The notes below the pieces were generated by a model. It was not told where the DNA came from and did no database searches. It worked only from the letters and a program-made list of their open reading frames with translations. A program made the position numbers and the translations under genes. DNA of 64,000 nucleotides from a virus, in the IMG/VR virus record IMGVR_UViG_3300037011_000200, positions 34,542-98,541 of that record; one strand, given 5' to 3'. Positions 39,701-64,000 of the stretch are shown here, piece after piece (the first letter of the stretch is position 1; each line of letters opens with the position of its first letter).

Positions 39701-42700
39701 AGATACTGAGGTGAGACGCGCAACTCGTACAATTCGTGATTTGAACTTTGCAGTATTAGGTGTAGATCCTGCATTGCGTGCAATGGCTCAGGTTGGGGTT
39801 GAGTCTGCAAGACACATTGAGAAAATTTTCCGTACCTTGTTTATGGCTCAAATACGTACCACTTTTTATAATATGATGCGATCTCTAGGGGCTTCTACTC
39901 AAGAAGTTGGAGAAGTGTTGTATCAATTAGGATCTGCAGGATTAAACGTAAACACGTCGTTAGCGGCTGTGGTTCCAACTTTACGTATGATCATTGGGTC
40001 AGAGGCTGATACAACAGAGTCTACCAAATTGGTTGCTGGGGCTTACTATTTATATGGTGATTCACTTCAGGGTGCAATGACTGATACAGAGAAGTTTGCA
40101 CGTATTACAGATATTTTGTCAGCATCGTTTCGTGATCACTTGGTGGAATTGAATGAAATGGTTACTGGTATGGGATATGTGATCACGACTGGAAAATTAT
40201 CAGGGTTATCTTTTGAAGAACTGGCTGCTGCTTTGGGTGTTCTCAATGATAATATGTTGCGGGGATCGAAAGCAGGGCGTTCATTAAATCAGATGCTAGT
40301 TCATTTAGCTCAGCGCACTCAAGATGTTAAAATATCTTTAATGCAAGTTGCTCAGCAGCACGGTGCTGGTGATGTTGTAGCTGAAGCTTTTAAAAAAATA
40401 GAACAAGAAGCTGCTACACAAGGGCGTCAAGTTCGGCCGTTTGATTATCTTATTGAAGCTGGAAAAATTCTAGAACCTGTACTTGCAAAGGCAGGGCTCT
40501 CAACAGAAAATTTAGCTAATCAAGCTCAGATTATGGGAATTATTGGATCAAGAGCGTATGCAGTTCTCTTATTAAAAGCTAGAGAATATGGGCAAGCTCT
40601 CTTCCAGTTGCAATATACATCTTTCGGTGCAGGCGAGCAAATGTCTGATGTAATGGTTACCGGCTTCGCTCGTGCTGTAAATAGGATTGAAGGCTTTGCT
40701 CGCTCAGGTATGGGACGTGTGTTTGGAATCTTTAAAGGTACTGTAGAAGGAATTGGAGGAAGTCTTGTTCGTCTGGAAGATACCACACGTGGTGTATTTG
40801 GTACATTTGGACTTGAGGTTAACAATGCGAAGAGTTTAATATCTAGCTTTTTGTTAATCTTGTCTGCACAAGCAGTTCTGAAGATTTGGGGAAAGAGTTT
40901 GCCTTTCTTTCCTAACATTAAGAAGACAATTGAAGACTTCAAAAATTGGAGAGCAACTACCCAGGAAACTTCAGCTGCTTTTATGAACTTTTCTAGAGCA
41001 GCTTTTACTTCAACTACTCCAATTGAAAAACTGGGTTTATTGACTAGACAATACTTTGAGAAAGTTCCTGAGACTGGTCGACTGTCTTCTGCTCTACGGG
41101 GGGCTAACTTACAATTTGTTGCGCTTACAGGAAATGTTGGTGCATTGACAGAACAGCAGCGTGTTGCTGTTCAAAGTGTAACTCAGTTTGGAAAAGTCTT
41201 AACTCAAGTGATGGCTGGTGCTCCAATTGGGCAAATGCGTTTATACTTGGATCAAGTCTCTCAAGTAAGTGCTGTACAACAAATCCTTACAACTAGGCCT
41301 TTCAAAATACAAATAGATACAGCTGAGGCAGTTGCGCGGTTGAGATCAGGCGAGCTTAGTATAGGATCTTTCAGGCAGAAGTTTTTTGAGTTACAGAAAG
41401 AGGCAGCAAAGGGGGGTATTAAGTTTCCTCAGTTTATGGGTGCAACTTTTCTTACTTCAGGGGTAGAGGCTATACGTTCACTTAGTGGTACATATGCTCA
41501 GTTTGAAGATGTTATTCGTGGAGTGAGTAAGGGATCAATTGGAGATTTCACTAAGTTTCAACAGGTAGTGTCTGATCCTGCTGCTTGGAATCAATTTGTA
41601 ACTACTGTAAAGACAGCAGCTCAAACTGGTGAAGAAAGTATGGTTCGACTGTCTGAGTCAATTGTTGGGATAAACGAAAAAGGAACTATTCCGGCAGCAC
41701 GAGCGTTTGAAGCTCAAATGGCAAGATTTGGGGTTGCTGTACAAACAGAGGCAATGAAATCAATGACATGGGGTCGATATCTTGGGGAAGTATTCAAAGT
41801 TGCATTTCCGGGGCTAGTGAATTTATGGAGTGGTATTAAAAACTTTGGTGCAACCTCCCAAAGAGTTTTTTCGGCTTTTGTAGTACTTATAAGAAGCGCA
41901 ACTAGTAGCATGAGAGGTTTGGAGACAGCATCTGCTCTTGCTACTATTCGAATAGCTGGTCTAGGAGCTGCTGCAAAGGCTTTCGCAGCTTTGAGGGCTG
42001 TCCTTGCAGCTGTGACTGGTAATCTTTTACAACTTGCTTTACAAATTGCGACAACTCTTCTTTATGCATATGGATTTGATAAAGCATTAAATTGGTGGGA
42101 AAGACTCACCAGAGGAGTAGATAAATATGCTGAGGAGGTAGGTCAGGCGGGTGCAGAGTTTCAAAAGAGTGTTGCTTTTATGACTGCACCATTACCTCAA
42201 ATGATTTCGTACTTTGAGAGAGTCGGTGAAACACTTGATGAGATGATGGCATCAGATCGAACCTTCTTTGTAAAAACTGATAGTATTGACAATGCGGTTG
42301 CTAAATTTAGTGAATTAAGTATGTTGGTTCAAAGCAGTACCATGTCAGAGATTAAGATTCTTGTAGATACTGGGAGACTTACGGAGGCAAATGTATTATT
42401 GCGGCAGTCAATACCTGAAATAGTAAAAGCGCGTGAGGAAGCTGCTAAAAGAGTTTTCATGAACTTTGGCAATTTTGGTAGAGACTTTAGTATTATGGTG
42501 ATGTCAAGCAAACCTGCTATTAATAAAGCAATGAAAGAAATTAGTGAGTTAGTATACAAAAGTTTATCAGATGCTGAACGTATGAAAATCGATCCGAACA
42601 TGTTAAAAGTCAAAACTCTTAACATTTCGAAAATTCCTTTGGATAAACTAACACCCGAAGTTATTCAGTGGCAAAAGGTGGGTATTAAGGCTGCTGAACA

Positions 42701-45700
42701 AATTGCAGAAGGCGCTGCTTCCGTATTTCAGACAGGTGCTCGAGTTTTGAGTTTGATGATGAGGATCGACCCTTCAAAGGTGGGCAAGGAGTTTGCATTA
42801 AAGTTTACTAGGGAAATACAAAAGACTGTACCTTTAATTGAGGGTTCCTTTCAAGAAATTTCCAGAGAAATGCAGCAAGGTGTTTTTGGAGATCCTCGGG
42901 TTATCGAAGAAAGCCTTGACAGAATAACAAAAGCTTTTGTACGTACTGCTTCAGGGAAAAAGTATATTGGTGACCTTACTAGAGCAATGAAGGATTTTAG
43001 AGAAGAAGTGTTTGAGACCAAAGGGATGACTCCTGAAAGGTTTGTTTTTACATATCTTCCACTCTTAGCTAAAGAAAGTTCACAAGAGGTTCAACAACTT
43101 GCAAAAGTTTTGGATGATCCTCTTGTAACTGATTTGCGAAAAGCTCTCTTGTTAGTCAATGCTTTTAATAAAGAGTTGGCTGTTTTTGTTGCAGAACAAA
43201 CAAAAATTCAAGAAGGGGCCAGTATTGCATGGAATTTACAATCGGTTGCTGACCTAGTTGATGCTTTGCGTGATAAATTTGAGACACTACGTCAAAAGAT
43301 TGAGCTTGTAGGTGCTGAACCTGTCGCTGATATGAAACAAAATATAGAATCTAGTTTCAAGGAAATTGAAGGAAAGATTAGAGGACATAAGAACCTCTCA
43401 CTCAAGTTGGATGTGGGATTAGTAATGACTGATTGGGCTGTTGATTTTAATAAAGCATTTGAAGGGGCATTTACATATGCACCAGAATCTGTTTTGGGTA
43501 AATGGGAACGTGAGTTTTATAAAACGGCCGATCCTTTAAGAGAAGCATTCTCAAGTGCCTTTACTGAAATATCTTTTTGGGCTGAAGATGCCGGAAGAAG
43601 TATCGAACAAGGATTATCTATCCCGGGTTTTGATGCAATTGTAAAAGCATCTCAATCGGGCTTAACTGTATTGGAAAGAGGCCAACGAGATTGGGTATTA
43701 GATCTTCGTCATAATTTTCATTCTGCAGAGTTATATCAGGAAGAATACATAAAAACATTAAATTCACTTGCTAAATCGGGCCAGTTGACACTGTCTCAGG
43801 TTTCTACCGAAAGAATTCCTACTGTGGACTTAGGAGGTAAAGGAGGTGAAGGCGGTGGAGAGACTTCACGACTCGAAGAAACCAAGAAAGAGTTGCAAGC
43901 TAGTTTGAAGGAAGGACTTGACGAAGCTCAAAAGTTAGCAGAAGCTATTCAGAAGAATGTTCGTGGTGCCATTGATAGTACTATTAAACGTGTTGAAGCA
44001 TTGCTTTCAGCTCTTTCTAAGGTAGTTGAAGTAAATATCAAAGTAGCTGAATCAGCTAGAAAAATGTCTTCAGGCTATAATCTCGCTAATAAGTTGTTGG
44101 AAACCACAATAGGGTATGCAGAGAAGTTATCTGAACAAACGAATTTGTGGGCGGTTCAACTTCAAAGATTACAAGTTGGTTTTGATGTAAGTCGAATCGC
44201 AAAACAGTTTGAAAGAGTTACTCAGGCATATCAGGGTAGTGGTCCTGAGTTGCAAATAGGTCCTGAAAAAGCAGCTGAGCGAATGGGTCAGATCATTGAC
44301 GAATTGAATAAGTCTGTTGATCAATCAATGGGTAATCTTATCAATGCGGTTACTCGTGCATTTGATATAGCTGCAAAGGAAGATGAGAAATATATTGACA
44401 AACGATTGAAAAACAACCTAAAATGGTCTGATGAAATTTCAGCTTCTGATGACACATATTATCAAAACCAGATTCAGGAGATTGATAAGTTAACTAGTGT
44501 TAGTGAAACGGAAAAGGAAAGACGCAAAGCTCAAATTCAGAGTGAGATTGAATGGTCAAAGAAAGTAGCAGATGTGAGGAAGGCTAAACTTGAAGCTGAA
44601 GCTGAACGATCTAAAGAATTAGATCAAGAGATACGGACAGGTGAACTTGTTCGGTTTATGAAAGAGATATTTGGAAAGAAGGGTGAACTTACACTTGATG
44701 AGCAAGGAATGGAAACAGCTCTTCAAAAGTTATCTATCAAAAGTCCTGAGTTGATGTTTGCTCTAAAGAGTTATCAAGGAACACAGGAAGCAGCTAAAAA
44801 TCAGTTAGAAGCAATAGCTACTTTTAATGAGTCAATCGAAAAAAATATTAGAAATAATCTCAAACAAGCTGAGGATCAATTAAAGGAATTGAGTATTATA
44901 GATAAATCAGTGGAAAAATTCGCGATCGATGTAGGTAAACAGTTGCGTGAGATTGCATTTGCTCTTAAGAAAGGCAAGATAGGGAATGGTCCAGGTGAAG
45001 TCTTTGACTTAATGGACAAGTTGAAGGGTACTGTTTCTATACCTAATATTGCAGAGACATCTAGTGGTACATATAAGCTAGCGTCAGAAGAAACCTCAGC
45101 ACGTGCCCTTGATATAAATATGGTTAAGGAGTCTGTGCTAGCCTTTGATCAATCACTTGATCAAGTATCAAAATCCCTTTCAGAGGGAGGGTTTGAACAG
45201 CTCCAACAAAATCTTCAAGCGCTTTCCGGAGGAATGAATAACTTTCTCCAGCGAATGATAGAGGGACAAAGTCCTGAACAATTGAGGCAAGCAGCCGTAT
45301 CTGTGAGGCAAGCAGCCGTATCTGTTTCAGAAACTCTTGAATCAGCTCAAACAAAATTATCCGGAGCAGCCGCAAATAATGTTAATATGCTTGAAGAGGT
45401 GGTACGTGCAACCAGAAGTCTAGGTACTTTACCCTATATTGCAGAGACATCTAAGCCAGCGCCAAAAGAGACTACATTGCGTGCCTTTGGTATGACTTAT
45501 GGGAAAGTTACGTTTGATTTGAATTCAGTGGGTGAAAAGATTCAAAATGGAGCAGCCACAATACAGCAGGGTGCACAGGTAACAGGTCAAGCTTTAGTAG
45601 ACGCAGGCCAAGAAATTGAACGAAGTGGGGTGGCCGCAGCACAAAGAATAGCTGGTGTTGAGATTTCAACTCCAATAAACCAAATGAAAACTTCTCTGAC

Positions 45701-46661
45701 ATCTTATAGTAGGGGCTTCACAAATGTTATGTCATCAATGAAAGACAAGCTTCAGGTGTTCACAGAGTTTAGAATGCCTGATCAAGATCCTGCAGCTCTT
45801 ACACGTATATTCGGGGATTTAGTTTCTAGTTTTGGCGGATACTCTGAAAGTCTAAGGAGAATTACACTTCCTGAAGGAATTCCTGAATTTGGTATGGTTA
45901 AGGAGTCTGTGCTAGCCTTTGATCAATCACTTGATCAAGTATCAAAATCCTTGGGAGAGTCACAAATCAGTTCTAAAGGGTTTGAACAGCTCCAACAAAA
46001 TCTTCAAGCGCTTTCCGGAGGAATGAATAACTTTCTCCAGCGAATGATAGAGGGACAAAGTCCTGAACAATTGAGGCAAGCAGCCGTATCTGTTTCAAAA
46101 ACTCTTGAATCAGCTCAAACAAAATTATCCGGATTATCCGGAGCAGCCGCAATACAGCAGGGTGCTCCTGCAATTGCTGCTGCAACGGATTTGGTGAATA
46201 TAAGTTTTAATACAGTTGCTGATAATGCTAAAAATCTTGCTAATATACTTGAAGAGGTGGTACGTGAGATTGGAAGTCGAGGTTCTATACCTATACCTAC
46301 AAGTGGAGTAGTCACTAAGCAGTTTGGTGGTCCCATTCCGGGTTTTGGTGGGGGTGATAAACATCATGTATTAGCTGAGGGTGGAGAATTTGTTATTCGT
46401 AAGGAGATGGTCAGACGATACGGCCAGGATTTGTTCAACGCATATAATGAAGGAAAGATTAAAGCAGATGAACTTGCAGCATGGATGGGGATATCTGCAA
46501 TTAAGTCTGCAGTACAAAAACAAAAGATTCTTGAATCGCCTGTGAAAAGATTCTCACTTGATATTGTAGGTACTCCATTCAAGGGTTTGGCAACAGAAGA
46601 TATGTTAACTCAACTTGAGAAGGGTCTCAAGAGAAAACGTATGGTGGGCCAAAATAAATAA
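30729..46661 (+). CDS. Giant tape measure protein (5310 residues)
   Basis: One uninterrupted frame of 15.9 kb, a quarter of the window. Sequence is almost wholly helical with Gln-, Ala- and Leu-rich repeats. A PhageMin_Tail-like core lies near residues 3000-3200 (VGEVLYQLGSAGLNVNTS, GLSFEELAAALGVLNDNM, GSKAGRSLNQML), then hydrophobic segments near 3735-3785 that may enter the host membrane. The C-terminus has the classic GPIPGFGGGDKHHVLAEGGE with FVIRKE. Tape measures set tail length at roughly 0.15 nm per residue, giving a tail near 0.8 micrometre. Comparable lengths are known from Thermus phages P23-45 and P74-26. Internal duplications occur near residues 4800-5140. Confidence 0.95.
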   Translation: MEQLGIVGSLDISQIKSQVDELNRVLGTLENSFRKVENVFSSVESSLGKVQGASKGLSDTLAGVRTSLSGMGNITQVATQVQKSVQEIQKTATGIKLDFKISDPGKSIKPWIDELQLVEKQVRSVTEKINKETQQTRSRFSDSADEISNFRGAMVATGKGQIPIWNEARTNLQSMVDVLGSYVVNLEKANQRGKLLGKKSLRTEMITGPFQQAQDMLFSFTDMVKGTPVSELFADWEDPLRSFSTSMEKTFGSTKWLTLFQKNFEPFRGTLAELAAVPAQQMSTAFTSLIPESKAMGALFMDIFTAKGPQELEASLRSLRANLAMLMPESAGAKALFMNFQELATLLRTRFLATSFIDFEPVITQALFRVGQLTEEFIQAKAAGRDTSQIVIGLAAAARELASEAQRVGVGIQGFMARAPGAGMETSITRLESAFQEEGLVAQETGNRAQEFFNIIRAGQTSLKQTANEIEKTAAATGKWGELARSTYVDLRRIVSTYQSFGRPTVISGIPESASTSAEKLSSTAAIPRDLKRQVDSLAGAYGLWATADITARQSFQRTGYITLDILRQLYKGFGEVAARPMMPAARVQELQRVRGALEKLLPPMELSKTVSTTAYNSFQFLARGATQFSNLIPKIVERLNASILKTRVDIVDPTAATKAIQPFEALKKVLVGLQGDLQVIAQEITLLYAKGAPSIEAIAQAFMKIRPETLERAFQAVTELQGAGRMLGARAVTGPLDVALAQVKAIGQIPPAFEQAFAKIQPMTTGFLDPEVAKRSMKVFAADLAGMFGGIDVVRSARKNGEQWAVNFTQAVNQGVKPISQFIKEQPGAPIPPEMVQKLQSQMAQAFFSAKLPQLFSGIEESLFTSVGILNRMGPAAEKFRAPLQQAQLDTQRLVELFLKIKFPDLRAGEDVGVLERDFSKLSSKISTDLKASFGGVGETIMGQLAQAYKSLGKLPMGAQLFGLAGNTDQMLRQVFGVFSRLLPTLKTEMLQTFDMPLEMATEFFGKLQQDAIQFRALVSQSAQPLISMKDALAGTANVFERLNMARRLGAPAEVVESIRAEADAFMKDKEQARQLSKQKEELGAAESNVGRLTELAITFLERETKSFSNLGQAANISLGALTSVISKQAGLFKGLTRDMGIKDLLTFEGVVPTGITPEVSKYLQAFYNNVGTNLDKLRQVTDQKIGVWSVGFGKGMNNFASVVKQNAFRLRGVMETVQSSAATGAQFRWEGLFDEPTVLALQKSSGRISSVLKRFQEDLMKFGQGTARRVEFGPVTQSLQQELAFVLNLAESVRQKIAVGEVGTEQLPAVNRLFQYAIQLDGAITALERPYQRMSEVASKGKASFTQLGRTFGSELYKATQEMGRSVTGLKQPIGLIVQKMFGEIFVPENLERITEFRGITEFLGERFPSQVQFALNVAAKRGIPVQKLLQQMIPVNAATLEEAFRNAPDVPRVLLEKMFRPESSLKFQQTAKGVVEQIIRAPMKEGLQRASELMSVDALKSFSQFSLADSILQPARRDLSKLRQVGPEYASQLNQVINYISAVLKTVPTGRRMGGILEQAGFDYSQIQALQAFVRGAQGPLYQLRNILTQAADPLKGISPEKMKLDLGLDRTVMGNLQRAAGDEEKLGKMTQFLSTMYDQAGASLIEFVARQETWSSKSIQDLTELMSFWKGLGEIIRLITQELPKMGTAQGLMGFEFKASDLLTRGAEAGSSFRQGLMQSMDLAAIGGGIGKMLAAIIAKDPEMIFEIMRTGSIRLREELRRLGYEGKGSIGALASSIEKLLPGTTLGPQFFGAYFEANERFFLESDKTTLAIMNIVQGFEQIRPTAAANLVATLERASAALHEADISFRGFGEGLGAHTVEFKAFSDKQRTLIQQYASGMAGAIKSQAALYQADPFERSFVRLIRSEDTLFDQLRNVIQTRGNEIKQVNEQAYKGLTEFISKPISTRTVADIAKVSQMPGLEQFTDIGGLLTKLAGVRRLFENVGQSVKSLQGMKPFEGYVRDAASLEVNMLKVMRTITSSLDRISQGKGMQLNVKESLVELGSLRERLSVITSEMQGWAQASAAGGAQLPYSFELTANSVAKMGRVLENVISVLRALPASGRVTEQSLQRLNDLSKDLWGSLKAVDQITLKDLGAQIEAIFSKAFGEKMGPWLYQGFAKVPAGARTFFGNFQKQLQTEGSNVNVLLQTMSTEFQSIFAKFGGRPQLMLQYFEKATPQMRLLLSQFFEQAGLLTGAGFQSWITQWSQYMGEMNIEEKKGLEKLQKQMLEGLSTFRETKFFPEPKVPTTLFDVAKALRQVGMSLQEIRQISDLGFIKLWGEALTQPFKMIIGQAGEVSVGLGGVFSIIGNKMAVFANSLDAVRQAFLGLRQDSVQVQEGFVAFITLIEKLSAAFRESKVVGSQWGVEIVSQLSVLGTVGKSLSDFTKGAAGIADFPRILREIDFGGLGQQLTTFMTGMGGAAAQTQVPEQFMAPLKSFLGMAKQLNQFAFAAENILKLTQAFSTLQAQLGSSQAVFQSFEGTFQIFRKMFELLPTLSIPMGPAVPAGAIESARNFAQVIAPLASAIRSVQDINFDAAINNINRAATEFKAALEKLFLALEQVPISSQTQKVISFLSRLATAFSKIDWTVNPQVITQQFVSTARAIEKGQQIVEGQVQEGAAQIASAAEKAGDQIKRSGLGSLGDLVEPSLISLFGAGEEPVPEYLRTTSQAYTQTLQGIGERTRMLVTEFAQASGQANIFGETLMQMARGGPSAAFRQMVDDLIMLGPAITQDTTKFNEMRQSLERFLTDVSQMKGVGAQFTELSARIGTPAMMGPSGLVQTLSDTARAIDKVQKAGAETTFLDMMIKSRSKAQELHIQVGGLLNYMQSMGPRLRESLTTGFARREFYSQISDIRRALEQAMTPLRGFVGFPQIRVDMEKMSSDLSRMSSMSTGILTVWDRFSGVIRSARDSFLNLIAYQTRWYLSMQIFWAVFGQMDQVIMNFGKLDTEVRRATRTIRDLNFAVLGVDPALRAMAQVGVESARHIEKIFRTLFMAQIRTTFYNMMRSLGASTQEVGEVLYQLGSAGLNVNTSLAAVVPTLRMIIGSEADTTESTKLVAGAYYLYGDSLQGAMTDTEKFARITDILSASFRDHLVELNEMVTGMGYVITTGKLSGLSFEELAAALGVLNDNMLRGSKAGRSLNQMLVHLAQRTQDVKISLMQVAQQHGAGDVVAEAFKKIEQEAATQGRQVRPFDYLIEAGKILEPVLAKAGLSTENLANQAQIMGIIGSRAYAVLLLKAREYGQALFQLQYTSFGAGEQMSDVMVTGFARAVNRIEGFARSGMGRVFGIFKGTVEGIGGSLVRLEDTTRGVFGTFGLEVNNAKSLISSFLLILSAQAVLKIWGKSLPFFPNIKKTIEDFKNWRATTQETSAAFMNFSRAAFTSTTPIEKLGLLTRQYFEKVPETGRLSSALRGANLQFVALTGNVGALTEQQRVAVQSVTQFGKVLTQVMAGAPIGQMRLYLDQVSQVSAVQQILTTRPFKIQIDTAEAVARLRSGELSIGSFRQKFFELQKEAAKGGIKFPQFMGATFLTSGVEAIRSLSGTYAQFEDVIRGVSKGSIGDFTKFQQVVSDPAAWNQFVTTVKTAAQTGEESMVRLSESIVGINEKGTIPAARAFEAQMARFGVAVQTEAMKSMTWGRYLGEVFKVAFPGLVNLWSGIKNFGATSQRVFSAFVVLIRSATSSMRGLETASALATIRIAGLGAAAKAFAALRAVLAAVTGNLLQLALQIATTLLYAYGFDKALNWWERLTRGVDKYAEEVGQAGAEFQKSVAFMTAPLPQMISYFERVGETLDEMMASDRTFFVKTDSIDNAVAKFSELSMLVQSSTMSEIKILVDTGRLTEANVLLRQSIPEIVKAREEAAKRVFMNFGNFGRDFSIMVMSSKPAINKAMKEISELVYKSLSDAERMKIDPNMLKVKTLNISKIPLDKLTPEVIQWQKVGIKAAEQIAEGAASVFQTGARVLSLMMRIDPSKVGKEFALKFTREIQKTVPLIEGSFQEISREMQQGVFGDPRVIEESLDRITKAFVRTASGKKYIGDLTRAMKDFREEVFETKGMTPERFVFTYLPLLAKESSQEVQQLAKVLDDPLVTDLRKALLLVNAFNKELAVFVAEQTKIQEGASIAWNLQSVADLVDALRDKFETLRQKIELVGAEPVADMKQNIESSFKEIEGKIRGHKNLSLKLDVGLVMTDWAVDFNKAFEGAFTYAPESVLGKWEREFYKTADPLREAFSSAFTEISFWAEDAGRSIEQGLSIPGFDAIVKASQSGLTVLERGQRDWVLDLRHNFHSAELYQEEYIKTLNSLAKSGQLTLSQVSTERIPTVDLGGKGGEGGGETSRLEETKKELQASLKEGLDEAQKLAEAIQKNVRGAIDSTIKRVEALLSALSKVVEVNIKVAESARKMSSGYNLANKLLETTIGYAEKLSEQTNLWAVQLQRLQVGFDVSRIAKQFERVTQAYQGSGPELQIGPEKAAERMGQIIDELNKSVDQSMGNLINAVTRAFDIAAKEDEKYIDKRLKNNLKWSDEISASDDTYYQNQIQEIDKLTSVSETEKERRKAQIQSEIEWSKKVADVRKAKLEAEAERSKELDQEIRTGELVRFMKEIFGKKGELTLDEQGMETALQKLSIKSPELMFALKSYQGTQEAAKNQLEAIATFNESIEKNIRNNLKQAEDQLKELSIIDKSVEKFAIDVGKQLREIAFALKKGKIGNGPGEVFDLMDKLKGTVSIPNIAETSSGTYKLASEETSARALDINMVKESVLAFDQSLDQVSKSLSEGGFEQLQQNLQALSGGMNNFLQRMIEGQSPEQLRQAAVSVRQAAVSVSETLESAQTKLSGAAANNVNMLEEVVRATRSLGTLPYIAETSKPAPKETTLRAFGMTYGKVTFDLNSVGEKIQNGAATIQQGAQVTGQALVDAGQEIERSGVAAAQRIAGVEISTPINQMKTSLTSYSRGFTNVMSSMKDKLQVFTEFRMPDQDPAALTRIFGDLVSSFGGYSESLRRITLPEGIPEFGMVKESVLAFDQSLDQVSKSLGESQISSKGFEQLQQNLQALSGGMNNFLQRMIEGQSPEQLRQAAVSVSKTLESAQTKLSGLSGAAAIQQGAPAIAAATDLVNISFNTVADNAKNLANILEEVVREIGSRGSIPIPTSGVVTKQFGGPIPGFGGGDKHHVLAEGGEFVIRKEMVRRYGQDLFNAYNEGKIKADELAAWMGISAIKSAVQKQKILESPVKRFSLDIVGTPFKGLATEDMLTQLEKGLKRKRMVGQNK
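45120..45340 (+). repeat. Tape-measure internal duplication, copy A
   Basis: Encodes VKESVLAFDQSLDQVSKSL, then GFEQLQQNLQALSGGMNNFL and QRMIEGQSPEQLRQAAVSV. Nearly identical DNA recurs at 45894-46140. Copy A also carries an in-frame 21-base tandem duplication (45284-45304 and 45305-45325), doubling the heptapeptide RQAAVSV. Confidence 0.85.
45894..46140 (+). repeat. Tape-measure internal duplication, copy B
   Basis: Second copy of the module at 45120, with an insertion of about eight codons (GESQISSK) after VSKSL and a single RQAAVSV. The near-identity at DNA level implies a recent event that would lengthen the ruler without disturbing the frame. Confidence 0.85.
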
Positions 46662-55703: not shown

Positions 55704-58682
55704 ATGCCTCGAATAGAGCACAGAGACGTTTTGTTTTCTGTATCGTCGAGATATTTTTGGGCTCGGATAGATGAAATCAATTCTGATGATGACACAGCTG
55801 ATATTGTTCTAGTTGATTCGAATTCTGAAGACATGTTAGATCCTGAGACAGGAGATCCAATTCTGATTGAAGATGTTCCTATATTTTTCCATTGTGATCC
55901 TGATCCTATTCAACGACCTAATCTCGCGTTAGAAGGAGGTTCAGCAGCGTTTGATATTGACGATATTGTTTACTGTAGGAAGTCTCAAGGCTCATTTATC
56001 AAACCTTTTGTCATTGCTAATTCAGTCTTAAAGAGTTGTGAACCTCCAGGGTTAATCATTGCAACTCCTTCTGGCTTGATTCACATGGATCCTATTTCAG
56101 CTAATCCTCCTGCTGATTATTTCAGGCAAGACTTCTATATGCGTTGGATAGGCAACAACCGAAAGCATCCTTTAGTTCAGAGAACAGTGGGAGAATTCTT
56201 CTTAGATACACCATGTATTACAATGGATGGTAATGTTGATAAGTGGGCCTATGAAAACAATAAAAGACGTGTAGCAATAGGTGAAGAAGCTAAGCATGAA
56301 GGATTTGCTAAAGCATTCGCCCAAATCAATATGACTACATATAACATGCAGCATCCCATTTTAACTTGTGATCCGAAAACATGGTCAAGTACCGCTGGAA
56401 TTTTCGAGCAACACCAAGCTATCTATTATATGAAAGACTATGCAATCCTGTTTGACAAAATGTTTGATCTTGCAGGAGCAAGTGACGGCTGGGGGAGACT
56501 TGGCATCACTTACGGTAAAACGCAACCTATAGATCGCTCTGATGATGACCCTGAAACCGCTGCATTAAGCTTCCCCATTGTTTTCCCAGGCACTAATTAT
56601 GGAGAGAGAGCACAGACACCTAACCCAATTATTAGTGGTAGTGCTAGATTTTTCAAGTGGGTAAACGACGAGAGAAAGAACTTTCATTTAATTCACGAGC
56701 TTAATATAAATTCTGATTTGAACGCCTGTGCACAATCGTATGCTTCTTATTGTGCAACGAATATGTGTCTCGCACATGATTGTGATGGACGAACTCCTGG
56801 TGAGAGAGTAAGTGATTATATTGATCCTTGGCATCTCGTAGGAGAAGTTGTTGTTGCAATTCCTGGTCAAGATCCTCCTTTATCTCTCAACGATGTAATC
56901 GATGCTATGTGGATTGGATGGACAGAAAGTGAACTTCATTATGCTGGGCTAATGAACCCTCAAATGAATCACATTGGATTTGGGTATGCGTTCAATGCTG
57001 GTTGGGGTGCTAATGGTATGTATATAGGTGTTGCCTTAATGCTTAAGAAGATAAGCAAAGGCACATGTGAAAGAGCATACGCGGCACCTTCATATGAAGG
57101 TGACAGATCACCTAATCCGTATCCAATTAATCTAACAGCTTTTTCCCCGCTAGTTACTGAAGCGCATCCACCTAGGTTAAGCCTCCTGTATGGTGGTGAC
57201 TCAATCATTAATAGTTACAAAGCCTTCAGTGCATTTAGTAGGAGACCTAGTTCAACTTACTTATATGGAATCAATATTGAAGCAGACAGAGTATTATATG
57301 ACCCAGATGATCCAGCTCAGACGTACATCTTAAGGATGTATGGATCATGTTGTGAAATTAGTCCATCGAGCTTTGCCCTAACTCCAGGCAATTCCAATCA
57401 ACAGTTCAGTGATACTGAGTACTATTACAATGATTTGATACTTTGGGCATTAGGAACATATATGTGGTTTCCTGGATATATACCAATTCCAACCTATCCA
57501 CCTCCATGGTGGCAAACCCCTCCCATTCCCAGAACATTAATTCCTGAAGGAAGGGAATACTTTGAATATCATCCCAGCGGAAGTTCATTCGTTAAGTTTG
57601 ATATACGAGGGCATACTCCACAAGAGCTTTACGTTGATGATAACCTTGTTGATTCTGGATTCGATCCTCTTGATCCTCCAATCATAGAAGGAGATGGTTC
57701 TCTCATCACGAGAACTCTATTTAGAAACTCAGCCAGAGTTGCCATTAAATCTCTTACTAGTATTCAACCTTTATCTGTATTCCGAACTTGCACAACAAAT
57801 TATACAGCTGTACTTTACTCCAAAAGTGAAACAAATCTTATCTCCTCAATCAATCAAGTGTGCCATAGCAATCGACTCTTAGCCTATTATTTTGAAACTG
57901 TTATAACTACTTATCTCGCTCTCATTTGCAACGATTCAGTTGTTGATAGAGTTCAATTGCAATCATTCCCTTCACATAATTTAAACGATGACACAGCACC
58001 TTCATGCGGAGGAGGCATCCCCAAAACCATTTCATGGCGAGCAGATAGTATTCAAGAGAATTTCATTTTTCTTTTTGATGGTTGCATTTCTGATATAACA
58101 ATATCATATGTCAATCCTGATGATAATGTATTATACTCTTATGCATATGAAGACATCGAACTTGGTCCTTGTCCTGTAGCATTCAAGAATATAGAGCGTT
58201 ATCAGGGCTTAGTAGAGATTGCTTTTGGTCAGCCAGCTCCCATTCGCAACGTCAATTGTACTTCCAGAGTATCTTCCAAATCTGAACCCGCTGAGCCTTG
58301 GAGCTATACTTTTTATTGGTCCTTCATTCATTACAATGAGTACGAAGAATTTATTATCCCTCATTCCTTAAATGGTTTTGTATCCTTATCTCATTCAATT
58401 TCTATGTCTGAAGATGGAACCTATATTTTAGTATCAAACACTCCTATGGATGTAACTTTAATTCCATATATAAATTCAATCCCAGGCGACCCTAATTTTT
58501 GTGATGACGTTTACTCTTATATCATCTCGACAGATCCATCTGAATGGACAATTGACTTTCCTGACAAAGAACGTCCTAAATCAGTGGTTCAATTATTTAA
58601 TAACAATCTAGAACCTTTAACTGATCCTATCTTAACAGGTCAAACATCCAAAGGGATGGGAGAGTATTGTATAGTAAATTAA
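55704..58682 (+). CDS. Large tail fibre/tip protein with CAP domain
   Basis: 992 residues, the last large gene of the tail block. Residues about 310-450 are a clear CAP (SCP/PR1) domain: FFKWVNDERKNF, LNACAQSYASYCATNMCLAH, GRTPGERVSD, LVGEVVVAIPG, IDAMWIGWTESELHYAGL and MNHIGFGYAFNAGWG. The N-terminal part includes an OB-like segment and DFYMRWIGNNRKHP; the C-terminal 500 residues are beta- and Pro-rich with Cys pairs, probably receptor-binding. The preceding gene has a second, more divergent CAP domain. Confidence 0.75.
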   Translation: MPRIEHRDVLFSVSSRYFWARIDEINSDDDTADIVLVDSNSEDMLDPETGDPILIEDVPIFFHCDPDPIQRPNLALEGGSAAFDIDDIVYCRKSQGSFIKPFVIANSVLKSCEPPGLIIATPSGLIHMDPISANPPADYFRQDFYMRWIGNNRKHPLVQRTVGEFFLDTPCITMDGNVDKWAYENNKRRVAIGEEAKHEGFAKAFAQINMTTYNMQHPILTCDPKTWSSTAGIFEQHQAIYYMKDYAILFDKMFDLAGASDGWGRLGITYGKTQPIDRSDDDPETAALSFPIVFPGTNYGERAQTPNPIISGSARFFKWVNDERKNFHLIHELNINSDLNACAQSYASYCATNMCLAHDCDGRTPGERVSDYIDPWHLVGEVVVAIPGQDPPLSLNDVIDAMWIGWTESELHYAGLMNPQMNHIGFGYAFNAGWGANGMYIGVALMLKKISKGTCERAYAAPSYEGDRSPNPYPINLTAFSPLVTEAHPPRLSLLYGGDSIINSYKAFSAFSRRPSSTYLYGINIEADRVLYDPDDPAQTYILRMYGSCCEISPSSFALTPGNSNQQFSDTEYYYNDLILWALGTYMWFPGYIPIPTYPPPWWQTPPIPRTLIPEGREYFEYHPSGSSFVKFDIRGHTPQELYVDDNLVDSGFDPLDPPIIEGDGSLITRTLFRNSARVAIKSLTSIQPLSVFRTCTTNYTAVLYSKSETNLISSINQVCHSNRLLAYYFETVITTYLALICNDSVVDRVQLQSFPSHNLNDDTAPSCGGGIPKTISWRADSIQENFIFLFDGCISDITISYVNPDDNVLYSYAYEDIELGPCPVAFKNIERYQGLVEIAFGQPAPIRNVNCTSRVSSKSEPAEPWSYTFYWSFIHYNEYEEFIIPHSLNGFVSLSHSISMSEDGTYILVSNTPMDVTLIPYINSIPGDPNFCDDVYSYIISTDPSEWTIDFPDKERPKSVVQLFNNNLEPLTDPILTGQTSKGMGEYCIVN

Positions 58683-58728: not shown

Positions 58729-58766
58729 ATAAATACCTCATATTTCCTTCCTATACACACACAGCA

Positions 58767-59110
58767 TAAATACCTCATAAATACCTCATAAATACCTTAA
58801 CTTTCTCCACTTATTTAGGCTAACGCTAACGCTAACGCTATAAATACCTCTTATTTAGTTAAGCTAACGCTAACGCTATAAATACCTCTTATTTAGTTAA
58901 GCTAAGGCTAAAGCTAAAGCTAACGTTAAAGCTAAGCTAACGCTATAAATACCTCTTATTTAGTTAAGCTAACGTTAAAGCTAAAGCTAAAGCTAACGTT
59001 AAAGCTAAAGCTAAAGCTAACGCTAAATAAATACCTCTTATTTAGTTAAGCTAACGCTAACGTTAACGCTAAAGCTAAAGCTAAATAAATACCTCATAAA
59101 TACCTCTTAT
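58767..59110 (+). repeat. Satellite array A: GCTAAN hexamers between copies of a 22-base spacer
   Basis: Hexamers GCTAAC, GCTAAA and GCTAAG, with GTTAAA/GTTAAC variants, run in blocks of 2 to 10. Four exact copies of a 22-base spacer separate them (starting 58841, 58879, 58946 and 59028). The spacer holds TAAATA and TATTTA around CCTCT, so it can form a small hairpin. The array is framed by TAAATACCTC decamers. The 680-base region from the tail gene to 59384 contains no gene I can support. Confidence 0.9.
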
Positions 59111-59158
59111 TATGGCTAAAAAGCTGTTTGGGAATGTAAATATTGGGCGCCAAATGAT

Positions 59159-59185
59159 GGCCTCCCGCTGGGGGGGAGCGGGGCC
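59159..59185. other. GC-rich hairpin with a G7 loop
   Basis: CCCGCT (59164-59169), seven G (59170-59176), AGCGGG (59177-59182), extended by GGC/GCC outside a two-base bulge. It stands alone in very AT-rich DNA just after array A. Confidence 0.5.
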
Positions 59186-59383
59186 GTAAAGTCTATGTTT
59201 TATATAGAAATTTCTAGAATCTTTTAGTCTAGAGTTTGAGGTAAATAGGCGCTATTTGAGGTATGTATATTATATGTGATTATGCGAATATCGATATATA
59301 GGAGGTATTTATCATTGAAAATATCATCATTATGAGTAATAGAGAAGGGTACTTTGTTTATTAACTACGAAAGGAGAAGTGCT

Positions 59384-59644
59384 ATGGAGAAAGAAGAGTT
59401 AGATCCTAATCTCAGTTTAACGAAAGGAGAATCTATGAAAGAAGACATTCAGATTCAAGAACAGTTCGTTAACCAGTACAAGGTAACACTCGATGAGTAC
59501 AAGCAGCGGGATGGCTTTTCAGAAATCTGGATCTGTGTTCGAGAGTTATCATCATTCGGAAGATGGATTCCTTCAAGAGATTACGTCGCTGTCAAGTTCA
59601 GGAGATGGCTTGCTGATGGGTTAAGGTTGAGAAACATCTATTAA
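59384..59644 (+). CDS. Hypothetical accessory protein
   Basis: 86 residues from ATG 59384 with AAAGGAG. A second in-frame ATG (59435) follows an almost identical CGAAAGGAGA, so a 69-residue form is equally plausible. Sequence has QFVNQYKVTLDEYKQRDGF and RWLADGLRLRNIY, a mixed alpha/beta look. First gene of the small-gene cluster after array A. Unknown. Confidence 0.6.
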   Translation: MEKEELDPNLSLTKGESMKEDIQIQEQFVNQYKVTLDEYKQRDGFSEIWICVRELSSFGRWIPSRDYVAVKFRRWLADGLRLRNIY

Positions 59645-59679
59645 CAATGACCACAACCAGAGAAGAATGGAGGTACAAG

Positions 59680-59973
59680 ATGAACAAATTAAAACTTATC
59701 GATTCAATGAGGCAATCAATCGAGGGAATGGTTAACAAACTTATCGAGGAGTATGGTGACAATTCAGGGCTCTTCGACGTGATTATTCGTCGTCAACATG
59801 TCAAAGGTTGTAAAGATGTCGAAGAAGGAATTGATGTCTTTGTATCTGTTGAGGTTGGTCGTGAATTCGTTGAGCTAGTTGATGACTCATGGGCCGTTGA
59901 AGAGGAATGGTACAATCAAATACCATACAAACATAAAAGTGCTTACAATCTGTGGAGAAAGTTACTGTGGTAG
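59680..59973 (+). CDS. Hypothetical acidic accessory protein
   Basis: 97 residues from ATG 59680, selected by GGAGG at 59670-59674. Acidic, with IEGMVNKLIEEYGDNSGLFD and VEEGIDVFVSVEVGREF. The leader CCAGAGAAGAATGGAGGT upstream is repeated before the 61084 gene. Unknown function. Confidence 0.6.
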   Translation: MNKLKLIDSMRQSIEGMVNKLIEEYGDNSGLFDVIIRRQHVKGCKDVEEGIDVFVSVEVGREFVELVDDSWAVEEEWYNQIPYKHKSAYNLWRKLLW

Positions 59974-59990
59974 AAATGACTAAACTTTTT

Positions 59991-60140
59991 AACATTCAAT
60001 GGAGGTGATTAAAAATGGCAATCAAAGATGAGCTTCTCGAAATCAATGAGATTCTGCAGCAGTGGTTAGAAGGAGGCATGACAGAAGAGGAAGCAATGAG
60101 GCATATTATCGTTGTTGTGGCTAAGCAATTGACTTCAATG
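59991..60140 (+). repeat. 150-base duplicated segment, copy 1
   Basis: Identical over its whole length, as read by eye, to 61490-61639. Contains the leader AATGGAGGTGATTAAAAATG and the first 42 codons of the microgene. Confidence 0.9.
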
Positions 60141-60200
60141 AAGGAAGATGTCTCTCCTGTGATAGGGCAATACGTGATCTGGAGCAAGAAATTTGAGTGA
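60015..60200 (+). CDS. Small helical protein, copy 1 of a duplicated microgene
   Basis: 61 residues: MAIKDELLEINEILQQWLEG followed by GMTEEEAMRHIIVVVAKQL. The first 150 bases including the leader (59991-60140) are identical to 61490-61639. An internal AGAAGGAGG-C-ATG gives a possible second start at MTEEEAM, the form used independently at 61434. Helical hairpin character; unknown. Confidence 0.65.
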   Translation: MAIKDELLEINEILQQWLEGGMTEEEAMRHIIVVVAKQLTSMKEDVSPVIGQYVIWSKKFE

Positions 60201-60352
60201 TTAATGTCAATACGAGATCTAAGCTTTACTGTTTAGGTCTCGTGTTTACTCTTAATCAGTGGTAACCGTTGTCTTTATAGGAGGGAATAGTTATGAAAGA
60301 ATATTACTGGTCAGCAGATACTTGATCTATTTCAGTAAGGGAGGGTATAATC

Positions 60353-60733
60353 ATGAGAAAGATTGTATTTGCAGTATCGTGTACATTCCTAATCGGTATC
60401 AACTTAACTCATTGTCATCAGTGTACGGTTTCTCGCGTGATAGATGGTGATACTATTGAATGTGCTGAATTCATTCGGCATATTAGACTTGAAGGAATTG
60501 ATACTCCTGAAGTAGGTGATCAACATGGCCTTATAGTTAAGGAGGTACTTGAAACATTCATTCTCGGAAAGGAGGTGACATTTAGGTATAATCATTGTGA
60601 TCACTATGGTCGTATTGTAGGTACTGTTTATGAAGGAGGTGATAACATTAACAAAGCAATGCTTAGATGTATCTATGTGAAACCATTTAGGTGGAAAGAT
60701 CAATCACGTAATCAACAATGTGAGATTGAATGA
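60353..60733 (+). CDS. Staphylococcal-nuclease-like protein with signal peptide
   Basis: 126 residues; ATG 60353 after AGGGAGGG. N-terminus MRKIVFAVSCTFLIGINL is a signal peptide, possibly ending in a lipobox-like NLTHC. Then the SNase fold: VSRVIDGDTIEC, HIRLEGIDTPE (catalytic Arg and Glu), LGKEVTFRY and DHYGRIVGTVY (second Arg). Ca-dependent cleavage of DNA or RNA outside the cytoplasm is expected. At the right flank of a phage it could attack competing extracellular or entering DNA. That role is inferred. Confidence 0.82.
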   Translation: MRKIVFAVSCTFLIGINLTHCHQCTVSRVIDGDTIECAEFIRHIRLEGIDTPEVGDQHGLIVKEVLETFILGKEVTFRYNHCDHYGRIVGTVYEGGDNINKAMLRCIYVKPFRWKDQSRNQQCEIE

Positions 60734-60750
60734 AAGGAGGTTATTATAAA

Positions 60751-61047
60751 ATGTCAGAAGAAGCATTGAAAGAGTTTGAGAGAGTACGACAAGAAATGCG
60801 CAATCCAGAACAACAGTCGATTGAACTTGACTGTGCTCCTGGGTATCCTCGCCCAGGAGATCTCATCGATGGAGTAATTGAAGGGTTAGGTCTCGAAAAG
60901 AAGGAGACATGCTCTAAAGTATTTGGTAATTGGAAATGGGTTTATCCAGAGGTTCCTGCAGAGAAGTGGAAAGAGATTCGAGAAGTACTCAAGGAAAGAA
61001 TTTCAAAGCTCTATAATAGTGGGGTAATTCGCTATGGTAGTTGGTAG
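60751..61047 (+). CDS. Hypothetical accessory protein
   Basis: 98 residues from ATG 60751 with AAAGGAGG. Charged helical ends and a central APGYPRPGDLIDGVIEGLGL. C-terminal KWKEIREVLKERISKLYNSG. Unknown. It follows the nuclease gene by 17 bases. Confidence 0.65.
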   Translation: MSEEALKEFERVRQEMRNPEQQSIELDCAPGYPRPGDLIDGVIEGLGLEKKETCSKVFGNWKWVYPEVPAEKWKEIREVLKERISKLYNSGVIRYGSW

Positions 61048-61083
61048 TAACGATTCATCCAGAGAAGAATGGAGGTGATTAAG

Positions 61084-61302
61084 ATGCTATTTGGTCCATG
61101 CGTTGGTGGTAAGTGTCCATATTACAGTAGAGCATTGAAGAAATGTAAACTCGGAAAGGCTAACCCTACAACAGAAAAGAGAACTCTCGAAGTTGTTGAG
61201 TTAATGGGCTGGTCTTACATCTGTATGCGGAACCCTTGGAAGAAAGAGGCCTTGTTTCAAATCTCACAGAAGAAAGGAGAGAGTGAGGTTGCAAGTTCTT
61301 GA
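61084..61302 (+). CDS. Small Cys-containing protein
   Basis: 72 residues from ATG 61084; GGAGG at 61071-61075 excludes the upstream ATG. PCVGGKCPYYSRALKKCKLG with a later ICMRNPW gives four Cys in the early and middle parts, compatible with a small metal site. The leader CCAGAGAAGAATGGAGGT is shared with the 59680 gene. Unknown function. Confidence 0.6.
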   Translation: MLFGPCVGGKCPYYSRALKKCKLGKANPTTEKRTLEVVELMGWSYICMRNPWKKEALFQISQKKGESEVASS

Positions 61303-61335
61303 TAATGAGTTATTTCCCGGAAGGAGAAAGCCAAG

Positions 61336-61437
61336 ATGAAAAAAGATTGTTGGCATCCAGAAGACGTTCCTCTGTGGAGAAAGGTATGGTTGTTAATCCG
61401 TTACGCAATCAAGAATCGTTGTAGAAAGGAGGTATGA
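61336..61437 (+). CDS. Cationic microprotein, copy 2
   Basis: 33 residues from ATG 61336, GGAGAAAG upstream. The first 26 residues equal those of the 7749 gene, encoded by identical DNA (61333-61412 versus 7746-7825). The end is replaced by NRCRKEV, running into AAAGGAGGTATGA, which forms the ribosome site and start of the next fragment. Confidence 0.55.
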   Translation: MKKDCWHPEDVPLWRKVWLLIRYAIKNRCRKEV

Positions 61438-61511
61438 CAGAAGAGGAAGCAATGAGGCATATTAGCGTTGTTGTGACTAAGCAATTGACAACATTCAATG
61501 GAGGTGATTAA
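61434..61511 (+). pseudogene. Partial copy of the duplicated microgene
   Basis: 25 codons from ATG 61434, MTEEEAMRHISVVVTKQL, corresponding to residues 22-39 of the 60015 product with a few substitutions. It then runs into the leader of the next copy. AAAGGAGG precedes it, so it may be translated as a shorter protein instead of being dead. Confidence 0.5.
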
Positions 61512-61639
61512 AAATGGCAATCAAAGATGAGCTTCTCGAAATCAATGAGATTCTGCAGCAGTGGTTAGAAGGAGGCATGACAGAAGAGGAAGCAATGAGG
61601 CATATTATCGTTGTTGTGGCTAAGCAATTGACTTCAATG
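61490..61639 (+). repeat. 150-base duplicated segment, copy 2
   Basis: Exact counterpart of 59991-60140. After this point the sequence departs into a third, degenerate leader copy (from about 61641). Confidence 0.9.
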
Positions 61640-61675
61640 TTGGTGGTGATTAAAAATGGCAATCAAAATCAATGA
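61514..61675 (+). CDS. Duplicated microgene, copy 2 with altered C-terminus
   Basis: 53 residues from ATG 61514 with GGAGGTGATT. Residues 1-42 equal the 60015 product. The tail is replaced by LVVIKNGNQNQ, read out of frame through the third leader copy. Overlaps the next gene. Likely a rearranged paralogue. Confidence 0.5.
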   Translation: MAIKDELLEINEILQQWLEGGMTEEEAMRHIIVVVAKQLTSMLVVIKNGNQNQ

Positions 61676-61793
61676 GAATCTGCAGCAGTGGTTAGAAGGA
61701 GGTGAAATGAGAATCGTTGTAGTTGTCTTCGGTTCATTAGTGTCTATGGCTATCTTTGCGTTAATGGTTTACATCGCTCATCAGATTCATTAG
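61656..61793 (+). CDS. Single-pass membrane microprotein (chimeric start)
   Basis: 45 residues from ATG 61656, or 28 from ATG 61707, which has AGAAGGAGGTGAA upstream. The first 16 residues are a shortened copy of the microgene (MAIKINENLQQWLEGG); the rest, MRIVVVVFGSLVSMAIFALM with VYIAHQIH, is a membrane segment. The joint lies at the GGAGG. Holin-like or regulatory membrane peptide possible; unknown. Confidence 0.5.
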   Translation: MAIKINENLQQWLEGGEMRIVVVVFGSLVSMAIFALMVYIAHQIH

Positions 61794-61804
61794 GAGGATT
61801 CACA

Positions 61805-62005
61805 ATGGAGATTAACAGAGAACTCGACAACTTCAAACAGCTGCTTGAGACTCGTAATCAGATCCTTCAAGACAAAATTCATCTTCTTGAGAAGGAGAGA
61901 CTCTTCCTTCAAGCTGCGAAGGAGTCGGTCTTGAATTTCGGTCTTGTGGATCTCCTCGATATCAACTGGTCTAAAATGAGATATTTCGTTCGACGTGGTG
62001 GCTAG
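61805..62005 (+). CDS. Small coiled-coil protein
   Basis: 66 residues from ATG 61805 with TAGGAGG. Heptad-like INRELDNFKQLLETRNQILQ and DKIHLLEKERLFLQ, then a basic end RYFVRRGG. Resembles the coiled-coil part of the 1271 product only in type. Unknown. Confidence 0.65.
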   Translation: MEINRELDNFKQLLETRNQILQDKIHLLEKERLFLQAAKESVLNFGLVDLLDINWSKMRYFVRRGG

Positions 62006-62022
62006 AACACCTAGGACCAGTC

Positions 62023-62068
62023 GAGTCACCTCTGATCCTTGAGTCACCTCTGATCCTTGAGTCACCTT
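62023..62068. repeat. 18-base tandem repeat
   Basis: GAGTCACCTCTGATCCTT occurs at 62023-62040 and 62041-62058 and begins a third time at 62059. It lies in the gap after the coiled-coil gene. Confidence 0.85.
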
Positions 62069-62127
62069 ACATCTAATACTAAAGTTAGTAGTTTATGCTT
62101 TGTGTGATTCTTGTGAAAGGAGGTGAT

Positions 62128-62184
62128 ATGGTTATCTATATTATACTCATACTCTTTGTGTGGGTATACTGGGGCAGGTGGTGA
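62128..62184 (+). CDS. Putative 18-residue membrane peptide
   Basis: ATG 62128 after AAAGGAGGTGAT, a very strong ribosome site. The peptide MVIYIILILFVWVYWGRW is almost wholly hydrophobic and would span or enter the membrane. Short length keeps confidence low, but the site is as good as those of its neighbours. Confidence 0.4.
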   Translation: MVIYIILILFVWVYWGRW

Positions 62185-62223
62185 GGGGGCTTAACGCCAC
62201 TATAGAGAGGAGGTGAAAACAGA

Positions 62224-62568
62224 ATGGCAGAAGACCTCAACGCAATGTTCGCAGCTGCCGAGAAGGCGGTGGCCAACGGCCTTGACAAGTACGCAGGTAC
62301 AGGTCAGGGTTTGAGAGGCATCATCTTCACGGCGATGGATGAGTTCAGGAAAGCGAACAAGAGCAAGACGTACAGACGCGCTGCTCTTGTACGATACCTC
62401 CTGACTCTGAAACCTGTTCAGGCCGGGCTGATTGCGACTGCAGAGCGTGTCATTGGCTTCGGTAAGCAAGACGCGATGCAGAGACTAAATAACCATCTCG
62501 GCCAGTGGTCCAAAAAGCGAGGCTGCAAGGAAGGCGGCGCTCGCGGAACGACCACAGTAACCCTGTAA
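62224..62568 (+). CDS. Unknown basic protein, predicted highly expressed
   Basis: 114 residues; ATG 62224 after GAGGAGGTG. Helical and basic: NAMFAAAEKAVANGLDKYAG, EFRKANKSKTYRRAALVRYL, QRLNNHLGQWSKKRG, with a Gly/Thr tail. Its codons are strikingly GC-rich for the region and resemble those of the capsid and SSB genes, and a strong terminator follows. This suggests an abundant product, for example a nucleic-acid-binding protein, but no family is recognised. Confidence 0.75.
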   Translation: MAEDLNAMFAAAEKAVANGLDKYAGTGQGLRGIIFTAMDEFRKANKSKTYRRAALVRYLLTLKPVQAGLIATAERVIGFGKQDAMQRLNNHLGQWSKKRGCKEGGARGTTTVTL

Positions 62569-62573
62569 CAGCT

Positions 62574-62608
62574 AGAGGAGGTAGGGCTTGTCCTTGCCTC
62601 CTCTTTTT
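62574..62608 (+). terminator. Terminator of the accessory cluster
   Basis: AGAGGAGG (62574-62581) pairs with CCTCCTCT (62597-62604), with inner GG/CC pairs, followed by TTTT. Marks the right end of coding in the window. Confidence 0.85.
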
Positions 62609-63223
62609 CTGCTTAACCAAAACATTTTTTTGTTTACCTCAAACCTATACACACACAGCTTACATGTCTCCTCGGTCCACTCCGCTCGGCGTCGTTACCT
62701 TTCCTGTTTGACTCAGCCTACGCGCCCCGCGGAACTTACTGGGGATTGTACGTTAAAAAGTTTAGTCATTGTATTTCCCATATTGTGAGATTAGTTTTCA
62801 GGTAGGGGCCGGCCCTAAAAACTTAGCTAACTATTTGATTTTATTATGTTTTTTGAAGAATGTGACTTGAGCAACTAATAGGGAATAATTGTTCTAAAAT
62901 AATCGTTAAGCACTATAAAAGTAGACAAGTTATATTCATGTCATTCCTAATGCTGTTCGCTAATTCATGTCATAGGCCAATAAAGATTTTCTTTGAGCCC
63001 GTGACTATTATATTATGAACAAATACAAACTGATACAAAACTCTAAAACAAACTGATACAAAACTCTAAAACAAGCTAATACGTTCAATGTGTTATAATG
63101 AGATAAAGTAAGCCCAAAGTTATTCTGTAACAAGTTTAGTCTTAATTCGTTTTAGTGATAAGTTTATTTGTTCCTTGATCCAAAGTTATTCTGATGCGCT
63201 AAGTGCTACCAGATATATAGTAT
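62609..63223. other. Non-coding AT-rich region
   Basis: No frame with a credible ribosome site or protein-like composition. It contains the CCTATACACACACAGC motif (62644-62659, also at 58750-58765), a GC patch near 62805-62815 and a 23-24-base direct repeat of AAACTGATACAAAACTCT type (63027-63073). AAAGTTATTCTG occurs twice (near 63116 and 63182). Looks like a regulatory or origin-type region leading into array B. Confidence 0.6.
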
Positions 63224-63230
63224 GCTGAGT

Positions 63231-63467
63231 GTCAATCGTTAGCTGAGAGTCAATCGTAAGTGTCAATCGTTAGCTGAGTGTCAATCGTAAGTGTCAATCG
63301 TTAGCTGAGAGTCAATCGTAAGTGTCAATCGTAAGTGTCAATCGTAAGTGTCAATCGTAAGTGTCAATCGTAAGTGTCAATCGTAAGTGTCAATCGTTAG
63401 CTGAGTGTCAATCGTAAGTGCCAATCGTTAGCTGAGTGTCAATCGTAAGTGTCAATCGTTAGCTGGG
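63231..63467. repeat. Satellite array B: 16 units of two alternating lengths
   Basis: Every unit begins GTCAATCGT (one GCCAATCGT). Ten short units read GTCAATCGTAAGT (13 bases) and six long ones GTCAATCGTTAGCTGAGT or a variant (18 bases). Order from left: L S L S L, six S, L S L S L. It ends in GGGGGCCCCCCCGGG. No unique spacers, so not a CRISPR. Iteron-like. Confidence 0.92.
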
Positions 63468-63573
63468 GGCCCCCCCGGGAAGAGATAATGAACGCGTAGC
63501 CGGGCTGGACCGGGCCGGGTAGGGTGCATTGAAATTAACTATTTCCAAAAGTAACTATTTCCGGAAATCGTGA

Positions 63574-64000
63574 TAGGGATAGGGCTAATAGTTATAGTTA
63601 TAGTTATAGTTTAAAGCTAAGGATAGGGCTAATAGTTATAGTTATAGTTATAGTTTAAAGCTAAGGCTAGGGCTAATAGTTATAGTTATAGTTATAGTTA
63701 TAGTTTAAAGCTAAGGCTAGGGCTAATAGTTATAGTTATAGTTTAAAGCTAAGGCTAGGGCTAATAGTTATAGTTATAGTTATAGTTTAAAGCTAAGGCT
63801 AGGGCTAATAGTTATAGTTATAGTTTAAAGCTAAGGCTAGGGCTAATAGTTATAGTTATAGTTATAGTTTAAGGCTAAGGCTAGGGCTAATAGTTATAGT
63901 TATAGTTTAAAGCTAAGGCTAGGGCTAATAGTTATAGTTATAGTTATAGTTTAAGGCTAAGGCTAGGGCTAATAGTTATAGTTATAGTTTAAAGCTAAGG
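63574..64000. repeat. Satellite array C: 38/44/50-base units
   Basis: Ten units visible, running off the right edge. Each reads GGCTAGGGCTAA, then 2 to 4 extra TAGTTA hexamers, then TAGTTTAAAGCTAA, so lengths step by six. Early units carry GGATAG in place of GGCTAG. Built from the same GCTARN-type hexamers as array A. Confidence 0.92.

Follow-up and report, generated by a model that had tools for sequence, protein, structure and literature searches.

Regular helical spacing is expected of the sites that make up an iteron origin. Such sites are typically tightly linked to the initiator gene (PMC7157519), and in the PLE satellite non-coding repeats serve as origin iterons (PMC7145576). Phage repeat DNA has also been tied to DNA partition, as in the paired parS arrays of RedRock (PMC7157519) and the AlpAC/alpS system of CGP3 (PMC4446434). 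Here, we analysed three tandem-repeat arrays (A, B and C) at the end of a 64,000-nucleotide stretch of viral DNA (the window), i.e., bases 34,542-98,541 of the 98,541-bp IMG/VR contig IMGVR_UViG_3300037011_000200. Window base 64000 is the final base of the contig, coordinates are window positions unless marked contig, and the G+C content of the contig is about 39%. An initial annotation had proposed that arrays of one hexamer vocabulary bracket a cluster of small genes and could be an origin, a partition site, a genome end or a recombination platform, an interpretation that our results support in part. We give about an even chance to the view that these non-coding tandem repeats are minisatellite-like and expanded through slippage and unequal exchange, within an accessory zone prone to duplication. 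All three arrays are non-coding and lie within the largest gaps of the gene map, as follows:

58729-59111, plus strand: array A, ten ATAAATACCT boxes interspersed with GCTAAN/GTTAAN hexamer tracts that differ in length
58840-58867, plus strand: 28-bp box ATAAATACCTCTTATTTAGTTAAGCTAA with the dyad TAAATA-N5-TATTTA, identical in four array A units (also at 58878, 58945 and 59027)
63231-63465, plus strand: array B, 16 G[TC]CAATCG (GTCAATCG-type) motifs from 63231 to 63458, spaced by 13 or 18 bp
63580-64000, plus strand: array C, units of 38, 44 or 50 bp made of TTATAG hexamers and GCTAAGGCTAGGGCTAA, showing a higher-order period of 82 bp and truncated where the contig ends

The arrays were confirmed as real and far above chance, and lie where the initial annotation had placed them. 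The best Tandem Repeats Finder score was 706, compared with a maximum of 60 (mean 25) in 100 dinucleotide shuffles and a maximum of 86 in the remaining contig. Tandem repeats make up 1127 of the 5318 bases (21%) in the last 5.3 kb vs 190 of 93,224 (0.2%) in the remaining contig, an excess of about 100-fold that bears out the earlier remark on how far this DNA departs from ordinary phage intergenic sequence. For a phage genome, usually a compact one, a 5-kb zone with more than 20% tandem repeat is unusual. A minisatellite-type locus is likewise characterized by non-coding DNA with more tandem units than chance would give.

Length changes in steps of six bases, first described for both A and C, are exact in array C only. 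Its units start at 63586, 63630 and so on to 63970 and reach the last base of the record, with spacings of 44, 44, 50, 38, 44, 38, 44, 38 and 44 bp that differ by exact multiples of six, the 38/44 alternation producing a near-perfect 82-bp period. The boxes of array A, on the other hand, start at 58729, 58766, 58777, 58788, 58840, 58878, 58945, 59027, 59085 and 59096, and their spacings (including 38, 67, 82 and 58 bp) are not exact six-base steps. Five of these ten boxes are followed by tracts of GCTAAC, GCTAAA, GTTAAA and GTTAAC hexamers, so that a GCTAAN-type composition holds for the tracts of A but only partly for C, which consists mainly of TTATAG hexamers with one GCTAAGGCTAGGGCTAA segment per unit. 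The proposed common vocabulary did not survive comparison with shuffled sequences, as the longest words shared by two arrays were 12 nt for A and C (reached by 9% of shuffles), 8 nt for A and B (21%) and 6 nt for B and C (77%). The three array units have no common word beyond composition, and common descent of A and C is not supported, the 12-nt word being within the shuffle range. We also discarded the possibility that A and C are coding repeats, because they lie outside all gene calls and most of their unit lengths (38, 67, 82, 58, 44) are not divisible by three. Single-strand folding of the array units was no better than that of shuffles, and searches against Rfam and for tRNAs gave no match.

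We favor slippage and unequal exchange because array C changes length in exact steps of six and has an 82-bp period, helical phasing is lacking in A and C, and fresh duplications lie nearby. Replication slippage would add or remove whole hexamers, unequal or recombination-dependent exchange would move larger units (e.g., the 82-bp period of C), and the genome would tolerate the arrays because they occupy its largest gaps between genes, next to a group of tiny accessory genes in which fresh duplications are also found. Both this mechanism and the absence of a dedicated function are what we infer from the layout of the repeats. The spacings in A and C are incoherent with respect to the helix (Rayleigh p about 0.73 and 1.0, respectively), which fits slippage and not sites bound to one helix face. 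The contig moreover encodes RecA, SbcC, SbcD and two helicases, in support of the same reading.

Several observations weigh against it. The 28-bp dyad box of array A is invariant in four units while the tracts between them differ in both length and letters, and this could reflect selection on a putative binding site. Array B shows weak helical phase coherence (p about 0.03). The confinement of all three arrays to 5.3 kb of the contig may mean that the locus has a function. Lastly, searches of viral contigs and genome contigs found no second sequence of the array region, and with a single sequence a change of array length in the population is not shown.

The invariant box is also the best argument for a bound protein, and thus for a possible but doubtful alternative in which one or more arrays are the protein-binding sites of a replication origin or of a multi-site operator. 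In such a case a dimer would bind the dyad boxes of A (perhaps also B) and either open the DNA or control the accessory operon, whose start lies about 250 bp downstream. The location of array A in the 671-bp gap upstream of this operon, the weak phasing of B and the PLE precedent are consistent with it. Still, the regular, helically phased sites of an iteron origin are absent from A and C and only weakly apparent in B, the units of the three arrays are unrelated, and a scan with Pfam and PHROGs recognized no initiator family among the nine open reading frames (ORFs) of the region (a member of an unknown family could escape it). There is no DnaA-box cluster near the arrays, and the G-C skew is positive along the contig, dipping locally at 57.5-59.0 kb and coming close to zero at 62.5 kb, without a sustained change. 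The origin role put forward initially has therefore gained no positive evidence and, like that of a centromere (discussed below), is weakened.

The zone between and around the arrays is clearly prone to duplication, and the repeats concerned are:

59991-60140, plus strand: 150-bp segment with a perfect duplicate at 61490-61639 and partial further copies at 61426-61504 and 61641-61702
61333-61412, plus strand: 80-bp segment identical to window 7746-7825, 53 kb away, carrying the start of a tiny ORF
58750-58765, plus strand: left copy of the 16-bp direct repeat CCTATACACACACAGC, which has only two copies in the contig
62644-62659, plus strand: right copy of the same 16-bp direct repeat

The zone also contains tandem pairs of 18 and 23 bp, and inverted copies of 26 and 12 nt connect the two boundaries of the small-gene cluster. 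It is unlikely, in our view, that the arrays serve as a platform for recombination and cargo recruitment, with the cluster inserted between repeats and exchanged through them. The fresh duplications within the cluster, the 16-bp direct repeat confined to 58750 and 62644 and the inverted copies joining both boundaries would suit such a platform. However, the direct repeat lies outside the hexamer tracts, no empty or alternative site is known, and the partner of the 80-bp repeat at 7746-7825 is without arrays; duplication thus needs no array as a platform.

The source is an uncultivated tailed phage with a bacterial-type replisome. Its contig encodes a terminase large subunit, a portal, a major capsid protein and a prohead protease, together with a DnaB-like helicase, a DnaG-like primase and A-type DNA polymerase proteins (the second polymerase assigned by eye). 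No tyrosine integrase was found in the contig, which is incomplete, and on these grounds the phage is probably lytic. The terminase large subunit (11269-13422) has a match below the cutoff to a Pfam intein-splicing domain (E 0.00048). A second assembly (G002) represents the same virus, being 99.997% identical over 34,969 bp with one mismatch, and terminates within an internal repeat of a giant ORF, unrelated to array C. This ORF (30729-46661, 5310 aa) has internal repeats at 45119-45365 and 45893-46133, where the second assembly ends.

Repeats were reported to have terminated phage assemblies in many cases (Al-Shayeb et al., PMC7162821). As the second assembly also ends inside a repeat, we infer that our contig probably stops in C where the assembler could not cross it. 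The earlier statement that C continues beyond the window has no basis in the record, which ends at window base 64000. That array C is the true end of the genome, i.e., a terminal repeat resembling a telomere in a phage with a linear genome, is extremely improbable. The contig does terminate in C, and the plus strand there is G-rich toward the end (skew 0.49), but the first base of the contig falls inside an open frame, so that the opposite end is mid-gene and free of repeats, and the other assembly of this virus breaks off in an unrelated repeat. Arrays A and B are internal arrays of a like general kind, and the protelomerase of a hairpin-telomere linear replicon was not found in the incomplete contig. 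These results point to an assembly break in a repeat rather than the genome-end role once suggested. We likewise consider it highly improbable that the arrays, C above all, are partly assembly artefacts with a wrong copy number or order. Only one assembly covers the region, its contig ends in C and the 82-bp period is near-perfect, as might be expected of an artefact; yet A and B lie inside the contig between unique flanking sequences and contain many variant units, and the second assembly shows a single difference across the 34,969 bp that it covers.

Near the other contig end, outside the window, lies an actin-like gene (contig 2120-3115, L005) that matches the volactin family PF25216 over its whole length (4.6e-68). 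The predicted product, a putative actin-like filament protein, is 39.9% and 31.8% identical to actins of the huge phages LR745208 and LR756511 (485 and 595 kb), and has no PHROGs match. This raises the question of whether the arrays are a centromere-like site, with the actin moving or segregating phage DNA via an array-bound adaptor, as AlpAC and alpS do for CGP3; we find this distinctly unlikely. It is to the credit of the idea that the actin is present over its full length, that its gene could be near array C, should only a short gap remain to close the genome, and that CGP3 and RedRock offer precedents. Against it, the initial 34 kb of the contig, where the actin gene lies, are free of arrays (the DNA upstream of contig base 1 is missing), no array adjoins the actin gene of LR745208, no adaptor family was recognized, and the arrays lack a common motif. 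Neither ParA and ParB, the components of a ParABS system, nor an integrase was found in this incomplete contig, which, in spite of the actin-like gene, speaks against the partition role initially envisaged. A more specific version, i.e., a new type of DNA-positioning system in a lytic phage that combines a volactin-family actin, an unrecognized adaptor and hexamer-built centromere arrays brought near to each other once the genome is closed, is very unlikely.

The searches for relatives returned little beyond the virus itself. The 992-aa ORF upstream of array A, the 114-aa ORF between the arrays and the left-end ORF had no relatives in viral contigs, and PolA had none in genome contigs; the portal retrieved only two contigs, both of the same virus and neither spanning the arrays. 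The initial annotation had suggested looking for GCTAAN arrays in related phages; the exact unit patterns of A and C matched nothing in viral contigs. Among the matches listed in a GCTAAA 17-mer scan (at least 120), 108 were inside open frames of at least 80 codons (mostly Ala-Lys-rich coding), and none of the 12 outside such frames was an array like A. A two-box pattern matched unrelated tandem repeats in Paenibacillus, Bacteroidetes, Shewanella and others, as well as two viral contigs, one of which (L130) has three such boxes in AT-rich DNA and no detectable relation to this virus. The array A box alone is therefore not specific. Comparisons of the array DNA with phage and plasmid records gave only short, weak matches.

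The surroundings of the arrays include four further features:

59354-62568, plus strand: accessory cluster of small ORFs (41-126 aa), one of which (60353-60733) encodes a homologue of staphylococcal nuclease
62574-62604, plus strand: intrinsic terminator with a 13-pair stem and a T-tract, closing the accessory transcription unit, with arrays B and C beyond it
59145-59184, no strand assigned: island rich in G+C that immediately follows array A, with 78% over 40 bp against about 39% for the genome
63502-63524, plus strand: G-quadruplex motif between arrays B and C, the only canonical one in the contig

The gap that holds array A is bounded by this cluster and by a 992-aa ORF with a CAP domain (55704-58682), which has no match among phage records and shows a reversed G-C skew in its 3' third. 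As first noted, the ORFs between A and B are all small (41-126 aa). The nuclease homologue has, as judged by eye, a hydrophobic N-terminus and is possibly exported. The 114-aa orphan ORF (62224-62568), in a stretch richer in G+C, has a strong ribosome-binding site, is followed by the intrinsic terminator and is possibly highly expressed. Searches found no family and no solved relative for it, and the AlphaFold models of this and a 94-aa orphan were of low confidence (54.6 and 55.8).

Such a repeat-rich zone may mark the fastest-changing part of the genome, and as arrays can halt short-read assemblies, they are possibly under-reported in viral metagenomes. If the boxes do bind a protein, the region would become a tractable example of an origin, operator or partition site, from a phage without close known relatives.

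Among known systems, the accessory cluster resembles the host-takeover module of SPO1 (PMC6873191) in being composed of mostly small genes with strong-looking ribosome-binding sites; here, however, the cluster is known from sequence alone, no sequence relation to the SPO1 module was found, and tandem arrays are outside the definition of that module. RedRock-type parABS mycobacteriophages (PMC7157519) also have two short direct-repeat arrays (parS-L and parS-R) in one phage region, but in our phage the arrays share no motif and ParA and ParB were not detected. With AlpAC/alpS of the corynebacterial prophage CGP3 (PMC4446434) the likeness is that one genome has both repeat DNA and a phage actin gene, although our actin belongs to the volactin family, is not adjacent to the arrays in the contig and comes with no recognized adaptor. 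Iteron origins (lambda ori, P1 oriR and the PLE non-coding region; PMC7145576, PMC11447400) share the concentration of short direct repeats in a small region, whereas in this case A and C are unphased, no initiator was recognized and the replication genes are elsewhere in the contig. Compared with minisatellites and short tandem repeat loci, the locus differs in its unusual concentration of arrays in one region of a compact phage genome, known here from one sequence, while it has in common with them the head-to-tail units, the step-wise length differences, the higher-order period and the non-coding position.

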